5,046 bases of DNA from a bacterium (GTDB taxonomy: Bacteria > JALSQH01). Under the pieces are notes generated by a model, which did not search any database, had not been told where the DNA came from, and was given only the letters and a program-made list of their open reading frames with translations. The stretch is taken from assembly GCA_026985515.1 (NCBI GenBank), contig JALSQH010000026.1, positions 1 to 5,046 of the forward strand, read 5' to 3'. Below, in pieces: positions 135 to 5,046 of the stretch. A program made the position numbers and the translations under genes. Positions within the stretch are counted from its first letter, which is position 1. Every line of letters begins with the position of its first letter.

Positions 135-922
135 TACTTTTCCTCATTTTGTGTTTTACACTTTTCATGAATAATCTCGCTGCTGATCCGCGCATAATTT
201 TTTCAAAAGGTTACTCAGCCCTGTCCCATGGAGACCTTGATTCCGCACTGTCCTACTTCCGCCAGCTTGAGGATCTGCATATAACTTCTCCTCAGCTTTT
301 TTATAATATGGGGATAATTTTTTTCGATAAAAAGCAGTTTTCTCTTTCCCGTCTCTACTTTGAAAGGGCAAAATTTCTCGATCCAGGATTCGAGGATAAC
401 AATTTTAATCTGAAACAGGTTGTATCGATTCTTGAAAGTAACTTTCCGGTGGAACTTAAAATAAATACGGGTGTTAAAGGATGGCATGAGTGGCTTTCAA
501 AGGTTTCCCTTAAAAGTGTAATATGGGTTCTAACACTTCTGTATGTGCTTCTTTTGCTCTCAGTTATACCTCTCTTTATTGCACGAAACTGGAAGTGGTT
601 TACCATATTTACAGTGGTATTTATCATCTGGTTTGCTCTACTGGTGGTGGCATGGGAAAAGATAAATTTTACATTTACCCCAATGGGCATAATACTGCAT
701 AAATGTGAGATGAGAATGACCCCTGATAAACAGAGTAAAGTTATGCTTGAATTACCTTCGGGGGTTAAGATACAGATAGTGGAGAGGGTGCCTTTCTGGA
801 TAAAAGTTACACTTGAAAATGGAATAACAGGATGGATTGCAGAGAAAAAAGTGGGTCTGATAAATCCCCCTTATTTTTTCCATGTCCCCACTGCGGTACG
901 GAAAATTTTGTCCATCCATTGA
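122..922 (+). CDS. batE: BatE-like TPR/SH3 membrane protein
   Basis: Predicted envelope protein of 266 residues with the BatE layout. It has a signal peptide (about 1-20, hydrophobic core then NLA-AD), a TPR-type helical repeat region (about 23-92; GDLDSALSYFRQ, then YNMGIIFF and the FERAKFLDPG turn), two membrane helices (about 133-153 and 159-177) and an SH3-like domain (about 187-247, closing with GWIAEKKVGLI). Bat proteins were first linked to aerotolerance in Bacteroides; their biochemical role is unsettled. The ATG follows AAAAGGG by 7 bases and overlaps the upstream stop, so this start is firm. Oddity: the family normally stops at the end of the SH3 domain, but this frame runs 19 residues further (248-266) across DNA that encodes the first CxxC knuckle of the next gene in another frame. 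That tail is probably not conserved protein. Symbol assigned from domain order; no alignment was possible. Confidence 0.8.
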   Translation: MGRIVLFLILCFTLFMNNLAADPRIIFSKGYSALSHGDLDSALSYFRQLEDLHITSPQLFYNMGIIFFDKKQFSLSRLYFERAKFLDPGFEDNNFNLKQVVSILESNFPVELKINTGVKGWHEWLSKVSLKSVIWVLTLLYVLLLLSVIPLFIARNWKWFTIFTVVFIIWFALLVVAWEKINFTFTPMGIILHKCEMRMTPDKQSKVMLELPSGVKIQIVERVPFWIKVTLENGITGWIAEKKVGLINPPYFFHVPTAVRKILSIH

Positions 923-1044
923 GACTGGAAAAGATAGGGGAGTTTCCTCTTAAGTGCTGGGCGTGTGGTAAAATTATTCCTCCTGATTATGTTTTAAAAT
1001 TTGTCAGGAATACTCAGGGGGGAGATAGGGATAGCCAATCTTGA
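832..1044 (+). CDS. Small zinc-ribbon protein overlapping batE (possibly its frameshifted C-terminus)
   Basis: A 70-residue frame with a clear double knuckle, CPHCG at residues 18-22 and CWACG at 42-46. The 20 residues between them include FVHPLRLEKIGEFPLKC, typical of zinc ribbons that bind one Zn(II). No further domain is visible and the tail is polar. The only possible ATG is 832, because TGA at 814-816 closes the frame upstream. It has a poor SD (ACAGG directly against the ATG) and lies 91 bases inside batE. The first six residues are simply the BatE GWIAEK codons read in the -1 frame. The module is therefore either a poorly started small protein, or a C-terminal domain of BatE separated by one base within the A6, C5 or T6 runs at 845-879. 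Its 3' end overlaps the convergent iclR by 41 bases. The zinc ribbon is convincing; its status as an independent gene is not. Confidence 0.55.
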   Translation: MDCREKSGSDKSPLFFPCPHCGTENFVHPLRLEKIGEFPLKCWACGKIIPPDYVLKFVRNTQGGDRDSQS

Positions 1045-1798
1045 AGGATAACTGCCATCCTTTTCTTATAACTTTCTCTATCAGTTTTTCTTTTATTGTT
1101 TCATTGAAGCGTGTGACTGGAACAAAGATTCCTATACCAGCAATAATTCTGGATGTGAAATCTCTCACTGGAGACGCAATTCCAATTACACCATCCTGCC
1201 ACTCTTCATTTTCAAAAGCGTAACTGGTATTTTCAATGGCCTTCACTTCTTCTAACAACCTGCTTTTATTTGTGATGGTATTGTCTGTGTATTTTTTTAA
1301 TTCACCTAAAGGTGGTAAACCGTTATGCTGATCGTAATATGAGTAGAGAAGAATTTTTCCCAGGGCTGTGGCGTGTAGAGGGTATCTCTCACCGGGAGAA
1401 GCTGCAACTTTCAATTTATGCGGTGAATCTTTCACCGATATACAAACTGGATCCATCCCTGAAAATACAACCAGCAGAGATGTTTCTCCTGTTTCTTCAT
1501 TAAGTTCCGTAAGGAGAGGTTCCGAAATAACTGCCAGTCCCGATTTCTGGAGATAGCTCTGGCCAAGTTGAAGAACTTTGATCCCAAGTCTGTAAAGCTG
1601 GGTCTCAGGATTTTGTTCAATGTATCCGTATGATTCAAGTGTGGCAAGGATTCTGAATACCTTGTTTTTATGCAATCCAGTTTTCTCACTCAGTTCAGTT
1701 ATCCCCAATTCAGGATTATCGTAGAGAAATTGTTCCATGATCTTTATTGTGTCGGCAAGAACATTTATCTTGTACTCCTTCTTGTCCTTGTATTTCAT
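1004..1798 (-). CDS. IclR-family transcriptional regulator
   Basis: A 264-residue regulator with the usual IclR length and two-domain layout. The N-terminal winged helix spans about 10-75, with helix-turn-helix GITELSEKTGLHKNKVFRIL at 32-51 and the wing YGYIEQNPETQLYRLG. The C-terminal GAF-like effector domain spans about 85-255, with the family signatures PGERYPLHATALGKILL (135-151) and DGVIGIASPVRD (202-213). IclR proteins are dimeric or tetrameric and usually sense small organic acids or sugar-derived metabolites; the ligand here cannot be read from sequence. The start is supported by AAAGGGG five bases before the ATG and a good promoter just upstream. The gene is divergent from the winged-helix/sfsA operon and shares a 158-base control region with it, so autoregulation and control of that operon are plausible. 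Its last 41 bases overlap the convergent zinc-ribbon frame. Confidence 0.9.
   Translation of the reverse strand: MKYKDKKEYKINVLADTIKIMEQFLYDNPELGITELSEKTGLHKNKVFRILATLESYGYIEQNPETQLYRLGIKVLQLGQSYLQKSGLAVISEPLLTELNEETGETSLLVVFSGMDPVCISVKDSPHKLKVAASPGERYPLHATALGKILLYSYYDQHNGLPPLGELKKYTDNTITNKSRLLEEVKAIENTSYAFENEEWQDGVIGIASPVRDFTSRIIAGIGIFVPVTRFNETIKEKLIEKVIRKGWQLSFKIGYPYLPPEYS
1043..1064 (+). terminator. Weak candidate terminator of the bat operon
   Basis: AAGGAT (1044-1049) and ATCCTT (1057-1062) form a perfect 6-bp stem around a 7-base loop. G1043 can add a G-U pair, and the 3' side runs into TTTTC. It sits right at the zinc-ribbon stop, where a terminator would be expected, but the stem has only two G-C pairs, the U tract is short and partly inside the stem, and the bases also code for iclR. 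Low confidence. Confidence 0.25.
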
Positions 1799-1956: not shown

Positions 1957-2136
1957 ATGGATCCGAAACAGATTGTCATTGATTTTCTAAGAAACAGTGG
2001 AGAACCGAAAAAAAGTGAAGAAATTGCAAAGGGAACGGGTCTTGATAAGAAAGAGGTCACGAAGATCATTAACAAGCTGAAAAAGGAAGGAATTGTCTAT
2101 TCTCCAAAGAGATGTTACTATCAGGTTAAGGAGTAG
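1957..2136 (+). CDS. Small winged-helix DNA-binding protein (59 aa)
   Basis: A complete one-domain winged helix. Helix 1 is DPKQIVIDFLRNSG (2-15). The helix-turn-helix follows, EEIAKGTGLDKKEVTKIINK at 21-40. The last helix and wing are LKKEGIVYSPKRCYYQV (41-57). It has no ligand or dimerisation domain. Small proteins of this form with a closing SPKRCYY-type motif occur in anaerobic bacteria and archaea and are usually annotated only as transcriptional regulators; that recall is from memory. The single Cys in the wing (C53) could be redox- or metal-sensitive, which is speculation. It is first in a two-gene operon: its stop codon is directly followed by the sfsA ATG, and its last codons supply the sfsA SD. 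It could be a local repressor or a chromatin-like protein. Confidence 0.8.
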   Translation: MDPKQIVIDFLRNSGEPKKSEEIAKGTGLDKKEVTKIINKLKKEGIVYSPKRCYYQVKE

Positions 2137-2868
2137 ATGAAGGTTTTTGATTTACCATATGATGCCTCTGGTATCTTCAAAGTAAGGGAAAACAGGTTTA
2201 CAGGTATAGTGGACATTGTTTATCCTGTTAAAATGAGAGATGTGCCTGTTCATATTCACGACTCGGGGAGGTTGGGGGAGATTCTCTTTGAGGGTAACAG
2301 GGTTTATCTCAGAAGAGCTGACACGAAGAACAGCAAGAGAAAAACAAAATGGGATCTTATTGCAGGGGATGTTAAAGGAAATATTGTTTTTACCAATTCC
2401 ATGTATCACAGGAACATAGCTTTATGGAGTTTTAAGAATCTTGATCTATTCAGAGGCAGGATTGTTAATGTACAACCGGAATTCCCTTATGGTAATAGCA
2501 GACTTGATTTTCTTGTTGAAACGGAATCTGAAAGATTTTTGATAGAGACAAAGGGATGCACTCTTGGAATTGATAACGCAGCGGTTTTTCCCGATGCCCC
2601 TACAGAAAGAGGAAGAAGGCATGTGAAGGAATTGTTAGAAGCGGCAAAGGAGTTTAAAAAAGTGATTATTTTTCTTGTCTTTGTACCGTGGGCAAACTGT
2701 TTTTATCCAAATGAAGATACGGATCCAGGTTTTTCACACTTATTTTTCACCGCAATTAGGAAGGGGGTTAAAAGCATTCAGCTTCAGTTTAGATATGACG
2801 GCAGAGCAATTTATTATTTGAAGGAACTGCCCATTTGCAGAAAATCACCTTTTTCTAATTTCAAGTAA
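2137..2868 (+). CDS. sfsA: SfsA family protein (sugar fermentation stimulation protein homologue)
   Basis: A 243-residue protein, close to the usual SfsA length. The N-terminal OB-fold-like part (about 1-75) carries VHIHDSGRLGEILFEG (38-53) and the RKTKWDLIAGD stretch (68-78). The C-terminal nuclease-like domain has SRLDFLVE with D124 and IETKG with E137 and K139, the D...E-x-K arrangement of PD-(D/E)XK folds. It is followed by the hallmark FPDAPTERGRRH (151-162). E. coli SfsA was described as a DNA-binding protein affecting maltose metabolism; the molecular activity in other lineages is unknown. Here the glycine motif reads HDSGRL rather than the HxPNTG form of E. coli, which I recall as typical of archaeal and thermophile homologues. 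The start codon touches the upstream TAG and uses AAGGAG at 2128-2133, only 3 bases away. The last 24 bases overlap the convergent glutaredoxin gene. Confidence 0.92.
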   Translation: MKVFDLPYDASGIFKVRENRFTGIVDIVYPVKMRDVPVHIHDSGRLGEILFEGNRVYLRRADTKNSKRKTKWDLIAGDVKGNIVFTNSMYHRNIALWSFKNLDLFRGRIVNVQPEFPYGNSRLDFLVETESERFLIETKGCTLGIDNAAVFPDAPTERGRRHVKELLEAAKEFKKVIIFLVFVPWANCFYPNEDTDPGFSHLFFTAIRKGVKSIQLQFRYDGRAIYYLKELPICRKSPFSNFK

Positions 2869-3102
2869 TCGATCAAGTAGTTCTTTATTAAATCCAACAA
2901 CAGGTCTGTTGTTGATAAGGGTGACCGGTACACCTCTCTGACCAGTTCTTCTCACTATATCCCTTGCTGCAGCCGGATCCTTTGTGACATCTATTTCTTT
3001 GAATCTTATGTTATTTTTTCTCAGATATTCTTTTGTTTTCCTGCACCATGGACAGTTTGGAGTGGTGAAGATAACAACCCGTTTCTGCTGTTTTCCGCTC
3101 AT
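2845..3102 (-). CDS. Glutaredoxin-like protein, YruB-type
   Basis: An 85-residue thioredoxin-fold protein of glutaredoxin size. It has strand VVIFTTP (9-15), the active site CPWC (17-20), helix RKTKEYLRKNNI, EIDVTKDP (37-43), the cis-proline loop GVPVT (57-61) and the VGFNKELLDRLL ending (69-80). The CPWC site and the GVPV...VGF pattern match the short bacterial YruB/NrdH-like glutaredoxins, which exchange thiols and disulfides in the cytoplasm. No signal peptide is seen. The start is supported by AGGTGG six bases before ATG 3102. It lies 57 bases downstream of the Memo-AMMECR1 gene in the same direction, with its own promoter in the gap. It may be co-transcribed by read-through but is not obviously dependent on that operon. 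Its 3' end overlaps sfsA by 24 bases with no terminator between. Confidence 0.9.
   Translation of the reverse strand: MSGKQQKRVVIFTTPNCPWCRKTKEYLRKNNIRFKEIDVTKDPAAARDIVRRTGQRGVPVTLINNRPVVGFNKELLDRLLEIRKR
2895..2914. repeat. Perfect 8-bp inverted repeat with 4-base loop inside the glutaredoxin gene
   Basis: CAACAACA (2895-2902) and TGTTGTTG (2907-2914) flank GGTC. It lies 27 bases past the sfsA stop, so it could form a hairpin at the 3' end of the sfsA mRNA, but no U tract follows on either strand. It also simply encodes Asn-Asn-Arg-Pro-Val-Val of the glutaredoxin, so it may be a codon coincidence. Confidence 0.35.
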
Positions 3103-3128
3103 ACTCTTCCACCTCGTTTTTTAGAAGT

Positions 3129-3156
3129 AATTTAATCTGAAAACAGGGGGTGTCAA
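3129..3156 (-). promoter_or_regulatory. Sigma70-type promoter of the glutaredoxin gene
   Basis: On the minus strand TTGACA (3156-3151) is followed after 16 bases by TAAATT (3134-3129, 4 of 6 match). It fills the short gap after the Memo-AMMECR1 stop. Transcription near 3122 would give a leader of about 20 bases containing the SD at 3114-3109. The exact -35 box and the same geometry as the other two promoters make this credible. Confidence 0.6.
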
Positions 3157-3159
3157 GGG

Positions 3160-4803
3160 TTATTTCAGCTGGTCTCTGTATTCATCCTCATCCCATACTT
3201 CAGCACTGAATTTCTCAATCTTTGTATCGGGATCTTTCCAGCAACCGGGGGGAAGACCTGCTTTCAGGCATGTGTGGTCAAGAAATGTATAGAGATCCCA
3301 GTGATATTCAACTGGCACCTGCGGGAGAAGCAGACCTCTGTAAAATCCTTTTGTAATAATTAAACCATCTCTTCCAACTTTTATCTCTGAAATATCCTTC
3401 ACCGGAACCACTGGTGTTAATCTTGATATTTCAATGTGGATGAGAGGTAACTCATCCTTCCTCAGAGGTGGAAAACGTGGATCATGAAAGGCTGCCTCAA
3501 TAGCCATATGCTTCACATTTTCCACAAGTGGTTCATGGGGTATTATTGTGCCAATGCAACCTCTCAGGTCACCGTGCTCTTTCAATGTTACAAAAACAGC
3601 ACCGGGCTGAAGTAGTCTCTTGGTTGGTGGTTTCCAGTCAGGTGGATCCTTTCCTTCCAGTGCGTTGGCGATTGTCTGCCTTGCCAGTTTTAAAAGGAAG
3701 ATTCTCTCTTCATCCGTTAATCTTTCTTCACCCAGTTTTTCAAGTTCCATCTTTCCCTCCTTATTTCCCTCTTCTTTTATAATAACCATACTTGCATAAC
3801 CTACAACCCTGTCAGGTGGACCAGCTGTATCTCCGGAGTTCAGATATTTTAAGAGAAGAATTTTTCTTGGTGTTTTTTCGAAGATTTTCAGTACTGCAAT
3901 TACAGGTCCCCAGCTGCACATCTCTGCTTTCTTATCTCTTACAGCGAAATAGAGGAGTTCCGGGTCTCCCTTTTTAATGTAATCTATGGTAGCTTTGTCA
4001 AGTTTCTCCGCTACATTATAGGGGTGGTAGTGAGAGAGGTCTGTACTGGCAATGTAAAAGGCTTTTTCACCAATTACATTTTTCAAAATCTTACCCAATT
4101 TTTCTGCTGTTGAAATGTCCTGATTTCCCATGACAAGTGGAATAATTTCTATGTTATTTCCGAGAAAATATTGAAGATATGGTATCTGTGTTTCCACCGA
4201 ATGCTCCCTCATAAAAAGAGTGTCATCGGTGGTGATCAGACCATTGCTGACTTTTATGAGTTTTCTCTCCAGTTTTCTTGCGATTTTCACCTTTCCAAGG
4301 GGTGTTTCGTAATAATCTTTGTCAAGAACCGCTACATAAGGTCTTAAGAAATAGTGGGAGATCCCGATTATTACAAAGAGATGTGGAATTTCATTACTGT
4401 GCTTTGCGATAAGTTTGTATCCATATACTGCAACAGGTGCTGCATACCTGTAACCAGCATGGGGACTGACAATAGCCACTATCTTCCCCTTTGTGGATGG
4501 AAGGGATGTGACCTTTGATGAGAAGTTTTCAAGCATTGAATCAATCTCTTCCCTGTTTGCTGGATAAAATCCTCCACTGACCACAGAGTAAAATATTTCT
4601 TCATGTTTTTTAACAATTTTCTTCTTCTTGTGGCATGCGGGGAGTATCACAAAGAAAATGATTAAAATTACCGGAAGTACCCTGTACCATTTTGCCTCTT
4701 TACGGGAAGTTTCGCTTTTTCCTTTTGATATGAAAATTCTTTCCAGTTTTATTTCTGGAAGAAGGGCTAAGAGGTAGAGAAAAAATCTTCTTGAAAACTT
4801 CAT
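3160..4803 (-). CDS. Fused AmmeMemoRadiSam proteins B (Memo-like) and A (AMMECR1-like), with membrane or lipoprotein N-terminus
   Basis: A 547-residue fusion. Residues 1-70 are an unusual leader: twin-arginine-like SRRFFLYLLALL (4-15), then a hydrophobic stretch ending ILPAC (43-57), which resembles a lipobox with C57. Residues about 71-345 are Memo/LigB-like: SPHAGYRYA with H115, GISHYF with H150, HSVETQIPYLQ (201-211), STDLSHYH (253-260) and CSWGP with C296. H115, H150 and C296 match the metal-ligand positions of human MEMO1. Residues about 360-540 are AMMECR1-like: LRGCIGTI (413-420), FHDPRFPPL (439-447), IHIEISRLTP (455-464) and YHWDLYTFLDH. Both domains belong to a radical-SAM-linked system of unknown reaction, and that enzyme is encoded directly upstream. 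I chose ATG 4803: it overlaps the upstream TGA as ATGA and has GGAGGT seven bases away. A start at 4845 would lie deep in the upstream gene. The domain joint holds signs of recent fusion, annotated separately. Confidence 0.9.
   Translation of the reverse strand: MKFSRRFFLYLLALLPEIKLERIFISKGKSETSRKEAKWYRVLPVILIIFFVILPACHKKKKIVKKHEEIFYSVVSGGFYPANREEIDSMLENFSSKVTSLPSTKGKIVAIVSPHAGYRYAAPVAVYGYKLIAKHSNEIPHLFVIIGISHYFLRPYVAVLDKDYYETPLGKVKIARKLERKLIKVSNGLITTDDTLFMREHSVETQIPYLQYFLGNNIEIIPLVMGNQDISTAEKLGKILKNVIGEKAFYIASTDLSHYHPYNVAEKLDKATIDYIKKGDPELLYFAVRDKKAEMCSWGPVIAVLKIFEKTPRKILLLKYLNSGDTAGPPDRVVGYASMVIIKEEGNKEGKMELEKLGEERLTDEERIFLLKLARQTIANALEGKDPPDWKPPTKRLLQPGAVFVTLKEHGDLRGCIGTIIPHEPLVENVKHMAIEAAFHDPRFPPLRKDELPLIHIEISRLTPVVPVKDISEIKVGRDGLIITKGFYRGLLLPQVPVEYHWDLYTFLDHTCLKAGLPPGCWKDPDTKIEKFSAEVWDEDEYRDQLK
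3748..3762 (-). promoter_or_regulatory. Internal ribosome binding site and ATG before the AMMECR1 domain
   Basis: Inside the fused gene, AAGGAGGG (3762-3755) precedes an in-frame ATG (3750-3748, Met352) by 4 bases, as good as any gene start in this window. From here a 196-residue AMMECR1-like protein could be made on its own (3160-3750), the normal length for free-standing AmmeMemoRadiSam protein A. Its first residues, MELEKLGEERLTDEE, look like a natural N-terminus. The site is either a relic of a separate gene or an active internal start. Confidence 0.6.
3761..3769 (-). other. G-GGA-AAT slippery heptamer leading into a -1 frame TAA at the fusion joint
   Basis: Codons 345-347 read gaG GGA AAT, an X-XXY-YYZ heptamer in the correct phase for -1 slippage (3769-3763). 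After a -1 slip the next codon is TAA (3763-3761), which would release protein B alone at about 347 residues. The same TAA overlaps the SD of the AMMECR1 start. No stimulatory pseudoknot was identified, so function is unproven. An ancestral stop codon displaced by a one-base change explains it equally well. Confidence 0.4.
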
Positions 4804-5046
4804 TGGTTCCACCTCCCGTAAATTGGGTAACCACAGTAGGGACATTTCCCATTTTTAATATGGTTTTCAACAACAAAGTATCCTATTCTTTTTATCAGCA
4901 ATCTACCGCATCTGGGGCAGTATGTTGATTCAGCCGGATGTCCCGGCACATTGCCTATGTATACATACTTCATTCCGCTATTTTTAGCAATTTCTCTGGC
5001 TTTTTCAAGGGTTTTAACCGGGGTTGGGTAAATATGTTTCATCTTG
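4800..5046 (-). CDS. C-terminal part of AmmeMemoRadiSam system radical SAM enzyme (5' end outside window)
   Basis: The frame is open through the right edge; the Met codon at 5042-5040 is preceded by a Lys codon, so it is internal. About 81 residues are visible. PTPVKTLEKAREIAKNSG is followed by KYVYIGNVPGH, then a zinc-ribbon-like end with CPRCG and CPYCG, and the final GRWNQ. This matches the characteristic C-terminus of the radical SAM enzyme that accompanies Memo and AMMECR1 proteins. The CxxxCxxC cluster motif and the TIM-barrel core are upstream, outside the window. The enzyme would use S-adenosylmethionine and a [4Fe-4S] cluster; its substrate is unknown. The stop overlaps the fused partner's start as ATGA, so the two proteins are probably made in fixed ratio. 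Confidence 0.88.
   Translation of the reverse strand, partial: KMKHIYPTPVKTLEKAREIAKNSGMKYVYIGNVPGHPAESTYCPRCGRLLIKRIGYFVVENHIKNGKCPYCGYPIYGRWNQ
4809..4817 (-). promoter_or_regulatory. Shine-Dalgarno that sets the start of the Memo-AMMECR1 gene
   Basis: GGGAGGTGG lies in the last codons of the radical SAM gene, with its GGAGGT core seven bases before ATG 4803. It selects this start over the in-frame ATG at 4845 and indicates translational coupling through the ATGA overlap. Confidence 0.8.

Follow-up and report, generated by a model that had tools for sequence, protein, structure and literature searches.

The stretch of DNA analysed here (the window; 5,046 nucleotides of bacterial contig JALSQH010000026.1) contains an open reading frame that joins a Memo domain to an AMMECR1 domain, and at the joint are sequences of the kind expected between two separate genes. 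This raises the questions of whether the locus is one gene or two, and whether the start-like sequences at the joint would give rise to a second protein. Memo and AMMECR1 proteins are found from archaea to humans, and in the AmmeMemoRadiSam system they are components B (Memo, TIGR04336) and A (AMMECR1, TIGR04335), together with a radical SAM enzyme (TIGR04337).

The fused gene and its joint

The features of the window are as follows.

4800–5045, minus strand: AmmeMemoRadiSam radical SAM enzyme (TIGR04337), C-terminal end; same operon, upstream, cut by the contig end
3160–4803, minus strand: fused Memo-AMMECR1 gene, 547 aa, a single open frame spanning both domains
4633–4803, minus strand: N-terminal leader, from sequence, hydrophobicity and comparison with other fusions
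3781–4587, minus strand: Memo domain, residues 73–341 (PF01875 / TIGR04336 profile matches)
3697–3780, minus strand: linker between the Memo and AMMECR1 domains, of low confidence in a poor structure model
3755–3763, minus strand: putative internal ribosome-binding site TAAGGAGGG, from sequence and Shine-Dalgarno (SD) scoring; the same nine bases occur in L003, the corresponding locus of a second genus
3160–3750, minus strand: predicted free AMMECR1, 196 aa, complete, from the internal in-frame ATG at 3750–3748 (sequence and SD scoring)
3193–3696, minus strand: AMMECR1 domain, residues 370–537 (PF01871 / TIGR04335 profile matches)
2845–3102, minus strand: YruB-family glutaredoxin (TIGR02196), downstream of the fused gene
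1957–2136 and 2137–2868, plus strand: small winged-helix protein, its gene with a strong SD AAAGGAGGTTGGTC, then sfsA

The 547-residue frame runs on the minus strand from the Memo domain through a short linker to the AMMECR1 domain; its start codon overlaps the stop codon of the upstream radical SAM gene within ATGA and has its own SD, GGGAGGTGG (−11.6 kcal/mol). The Memo part scores 246 bits against TIGR04336 (cut-off 26) and 198 bits against PF01875, and the AMMECR1 part 197 bits against TIGR04335 (cut-off 99) and 199 bits against PF01871, as well as matching the structure 1vaj (E=1e-42). Only the last 81 residues of the radical SAM enzyme are on the contig, scoring 73 bits to TIGR04337 (full-length cut-off 220), and a complete radical SAM gene lies at the corresponding place in L003. 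The putative Memo metal ligands H115 (in PHAGY), H150 and C296 are invariant in A1. An AlphaFold2 model of the fused protein from a 3-row alignment (mean pLDDT 58, pTM 0.39, linker below 50) is too poor to describe the B-A interface.

The joint reads GTT ATT ATA AAA GAA GAG GGA AAT AAG GAG GGA AAG ATG GAA CTT on the minus strand, with the Memo end VVGYASMVII directly 5′ of the codons from AAA GAA through ATG GAA. The initial annotation had described here a Memo end, a −1 frame TAA, an SD and an ATG for a full-length AMMECR1, and each of these is present to the base: the AAGGAGGG core is at 3762–3755, the TAA at 3763–3761 forms the first three bases of TAAGGAGGG, and the ATG at 3750 opens a complete AMMECR1 gene inside the joint. 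The TAA also belongs to TAAGGAGG, the complement of the 16S rRNA 3′ end. SD strength was scored as the computed pairing with ACCUCCUUA 5′ of each in-frame start, and the joint ATG, at −12.4 kcal/mol, is the strongest among all 162 ATGs that the window has on its two strands, exceeding even the fused gene's own start. The site is also unusually unstructured (97th percentile among positions in the gene). The SD and ATG at the joint of the window are thus beyond chance.

The probable explanation, as we read the sequence, is a two-product gene: an old fusion that has kept the start of A, and that would encode both an exported B-A protein and a signal-less cytosolic A. Ribosomes starting at 4803 would make the 547-residue B-A protein, whose leader probably directs it to or across the membrane, and those starting at 3750 would make a 196-residue AMMECR1 without the leader. 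The latter would be cytosolic, and might act with a Memo protein in the cytosol or with a radical SAM enzyme.

Retention of the putative internal start within clades

The clade of the window is represented by two sequences, the second being L003, from the one further genome of this phylum that was compared. Alignment of the joint with this closest relative, which the initial annotation had proposed, shows the genes fused in frame there too, with a joint (AGT AAG GAG GGT AAG AAA ATG GAA CTT) that is one codon (3 nt) longer and has the same SD and ATG; TAAGGAGGG and ATGGAACTT are unchanged between the two and nearby linker bases differ. Two further phyla were taken, each on the strength of a member with the site, and they therefore test its retention and not its frequency. 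In one of these, nine fusions from six genera keep the SD and start (ATG, or in one case GTG), and the peptides that encode the SD vary (KGVPM, KEGAM, KGGDM, KEVEV, QEEKM). In the other, 16 joints were read: 15 have an in-frame ATG, 14 of these with an SD of −8 kcal/mol or stronger, and with peptides such as KGGDML, KGRRKML, REKKML and KEGEESM. The SD is found in all three codon phases at joints, and base-by-base identity of the SD in ungapped pairs was uninformative, since its register varies.

On a tree of 113 fusions built on the two domains only, and with an SD cut-off of −7, the SD trait is clustered, being present in 25 members of one 33-gene clade, and requires 16 changes, at least seven of them on well-supported branches.

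The strongest rival explanation, although an unlikely one, is that the SD and ATG are an unused scar of the former gene A, with the fused protein as the sole product. An SD could indeed have been inherited from the fusion event, as there are unfused same-frame Memo-AMMECR1 tandems with nearly identical joints, L121 (AGA TAA GGAGGT AAA ATG) and L133, and the other fusions nearest to the window on the tree (L004, L058, L075, L079) have no SD. Nonetheless, the SD and start have been kept across genus-to-phylum divergence while the linker peptide changes and the SD moves from one codon phase to another, which is unlike the behavior of a functionless scar; within the window pair the two elements have likewise stayed the same amid changed linker bases, and the choice among synonymous codons favours the SD (see below).

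Putative internal starts at the joints of other fusions

The two-product reading was compared with a sample of 99 fused genes chosen without regard to the SD trait, with a strong SD taken as −8 kcal/mol or below. A strong SD precedes 25 of the 65 joint ATGs vs 14 of the 657 other ATGs in the same genes (p=4e-19), and if the joint is delimited a little more tightly, a strong SD and ATG are found in 23 genes, representing 17 of 71 families. The joint sites equal genuine starts in strength, since −8 is attained by 17 of the 39 separate AMMECR1 genes for which there is a candidate ATG. About 70% of the fusions do not have a strong SD and ATG, so free A is not needed universally.

The spacing between the SD (9-mer end) and the ATG peaks at 1–7 nt, with none beyond 15, and away from any ATG strong SDs are just 1.5 times as frequent in joints as in the body of the genes. 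These patterns bear on the idea that an SD-like run merely slows translation for the folding or export of Memo, with no initiation. The site does lie exactly between the two domains, in a protein that in most cases bears an export-type leader. Strong SDs, however, go together with an in-frame ATG at the distance suited to initiation and fall close to background elsewhere in the joints, and pausing has no need of an ATG; we regard this explanation as improbable.

In a larger set, 33 of 113 joints have a strong SD with an ATG, as against a mean of 5.1 (maximum 13) in 300 runs of codon-order shuffling, a mean of 15.4 (maximum 24) when synonymous codons are resampled, and 1.2 in windows of the same size elsewhere in the genes. 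Both residue order and codon choice therefore favour the site. Joints are purine-rich (60% vs 52% overall), and synonymous resampling alone yields about 15 of 113, so flexible linkers rich in K, E, G and M could be imagined to mimic an SD and ATG by chance; with the composition-keeping shuffles and the resampling both falling short of the observed 33 even at their maxima, this is very improbable.

Age and origin of the fusion

The fused protein of L003 is 77% identical to that of the window, and Memo and AMMECR1 share one open frame in about 100 of the 386 genomes sampled; their linkers measure 8 to 50 residues and have no sequence in common. By these comparisons the fusion of B and A is long-established and in frame. 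The initial annotation had entertained a very young natural fusion, and this is contradicted both by the fusion being common to a second genus at this level of identity and by the unrelated linkers in many other fusions, the latter being an observation that it had itself named as telling against recency. Its suggestion of an ordinary gene pair as the source fares better: tandem pairs with a similar joint exist, from one of which the fusion plausibly arose, and it is only the recent date that falls. That two normal genes were merged by one missing base through a base-calling or assembly error, as the initial annotation also considered, is hardly credible, for although homopolymer runs lie by the joint, the assembly is in 268 contigs and a TAA is present in the −1 frame, an independent genome of another genus is fused in frame, about 100 fused genes occur elsewhere, and a −1 frame stop is found in 84 of 113 fused joints (74%) regardless. 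For this last reason, and because the TAA lies within TAAGGAGG, the off-frame TAA is not diagnostic of a former stop, and its identification as a relic was rejected. A scan of genome contigs returned one distant archaeal locus only, and a plasmid search two fused records, both distant.

Leaders and probable export

The leader of the window protein contains a twin-arginine-like SRRFFLYLLAL, the motif RKEAKWYR, a hydrophobic run, and a lipobox-like ILPA preceding C57 (SRRFFLYLLAL...VILIIFFVILPA followed by C). The lipobox-like sites (LPAC57 in the window, STGC in L003) are rule-based calls, and the N-region of the window protein is atypically long and has the twin-arginine motif. Leaders were called by a hydrophobicity rule rather than with signal-peptide prediction software. 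On this rule, 82 of the 96 fusions with room for one have a hydrophobic leader ahead of Memo, and many of these leaders end in a lipobox-like sequence. Among separate proteins leaders are found in 6 of 49 Memo and 1 of 42 AMMECR1. The sole leader-bearing AMMECR1 is that of L166 (1834–1962, plus strand, genome G088), which has its own leader and follows an unfused, exported-type Memo that also has one. Fusion seems to let A travel with an exported B, and initiation at the joint, past the leader, would keep a copy of A inside the cell.

Leaders are also present on radical SAM enzymes. Beside many fused B-A genes the radical SAM enzyme bears a Sec- or twin-arginine-like leader with KEAxFYxKL (L201–L216, L006, L007, L049, L050 and L161, in each case 5′ of the fused gene). 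In the family of the window, the L003 radical SAM protein has no leader, whereas those of several other clades do. In the window (4803–4633, minus strand), L003, L067 and L068 it is the fused B-A protein that bears a twin-arginine-like leader with RKEAxFYR, a combination found elsewhere on the radical SAM enzyme; the leader may have moved from one gene to its neighbour in the window family and in L067/L068. The leaders on the radical SAM partner in several clades raise the possibility that a whole branch of AmmeMemoRadiSam systems acts outside the cytoplasm. We tentatively suggest that AMMECR1 might be present on both sides of the membrane, as an exported Memo-AMMECR1 and a cytosolic AMMECR1, with the branch as a whole perhaps extracytoplasmic, although we consider this arrangement somewhat less likely than not to be correct.

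Separate AMMECR1 genes

If the joint start supplies cytosolic A, separate A genes are expected to be absent, and the prediction that genomes with the joint start should lack them was set before the test. Close separate AMMECR1 genes (at least 150 bits) are present in none of 38 genomes with the start vs 12 of 42 without; counted by family, the figures are 0 of 20 vs 11 of 36 (p=0.005). When any AMMECR1 is counted, the difference (7 of 38 genomes with the start vs 12 of 42 without) is not significant. Genome size is a confounder, genomes with the joint start being smaller (1.9 vs 3.3 Mb). The prediction is partly borne out, for close homologues only, and offers the two-product reading weak support. 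The genome of the window itself has a divergent second AMMECR1 (L198; G000:C121:9849-10226) and a second complete AmmeMemoRadiSam radical SAM gene (L218; G000:C128:694-1701).

Gene neighbourhood

In L225 (1914–4115, plus strand; IMGVR_UViG_3300024262_001784, IMG/VR), a 733-residue frame contains Memo, AMMECR1 and radical SAM in one polypeptide, which directly supports the three acting together. In L223 (IMGVR_UViG_3300009296_000163), a contig filed as viral, a fused B-A gene (2025–3452, plus strand) comes immediately after one for a large serine recombinase (165–1793, plus strand). The YruB-family glutaredoxin that follows the fused gene in the window does not adjoin it in the other genus. The winged-helix protein at 1957–2136 has the Z-alpha family as its top Pfam match (E=2.7e-7), which is unusual in bacteria.

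Relationships to known systems

Both the AmmeMemoRadiSam system and the principle of an in-frame internal start are already known. The window resembles that system in having A and B, both above the NCBIfam cut-offs, in one operon with what appears to be the radical SAM component, of which the C-terminal end is on the contig. It differs in that B and A form one polypeptide, with a leader and a candidate internal start for A, features absent from the family descriptions consulted. Memo-AMMECR1 systems are credited to Burroughs et al. 2019 in PMC7159879.

Two known internal starts can be compared. First, Cas11 is made from an internal start inside cas8/cas10, as proven by start-codon mutation (PMC11899642); there, as proposed here, an in-frame internal start missed by annotation adds a C-terminal domain as a separate protein. 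The proteins are unrelated, the Cas11 start is proven whereas that of the window is inferred from sequence, and here the products would probably be in different compartments. The window has one open frame, with an SD and ATG at the domain border that are beyond chance and conserved. Secondly, ClpB of M. tuberculosis has an internal translation start giving ClpB-deltaN (PMC6168691), likewise a conserved internal start with an N-terminally shortened product; in that case a single enzyme loses a domain, whereas here the product of a formerly separate gene would be regenerated from a fusion. As for the domains themselves, the metal ligands H49, H81 and C244 of human MEMO1 (PMC11081632) appear equivalent to H115, H150 and C296 by motif match and not by structure alignment, and the archaeal AMMECR1-family protein PH0010 (1vaj) shares the AMMECR1 domain; unlike the window protein, both of these are separate proteins with no fusion. 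In the open-licence literature we found neither a conserved internal start described for Memo-AMMECR1 fusions nor any account of such fusions being generally exported.

The retention of a separate supply of A by a fusion would imply that B and A act jointly and also that free A does something more, and the presence of leaders on fusions vs their general absence from separate genes provides a clue as to compartment. If the leaders on the radical SAM enzymes do place those enzymes outside the cytoplasm, this would be a most unexpected location for a radical SAM enzyme. Gene callers that give one fused reading frame would overlook a probable second protein in many lineages.
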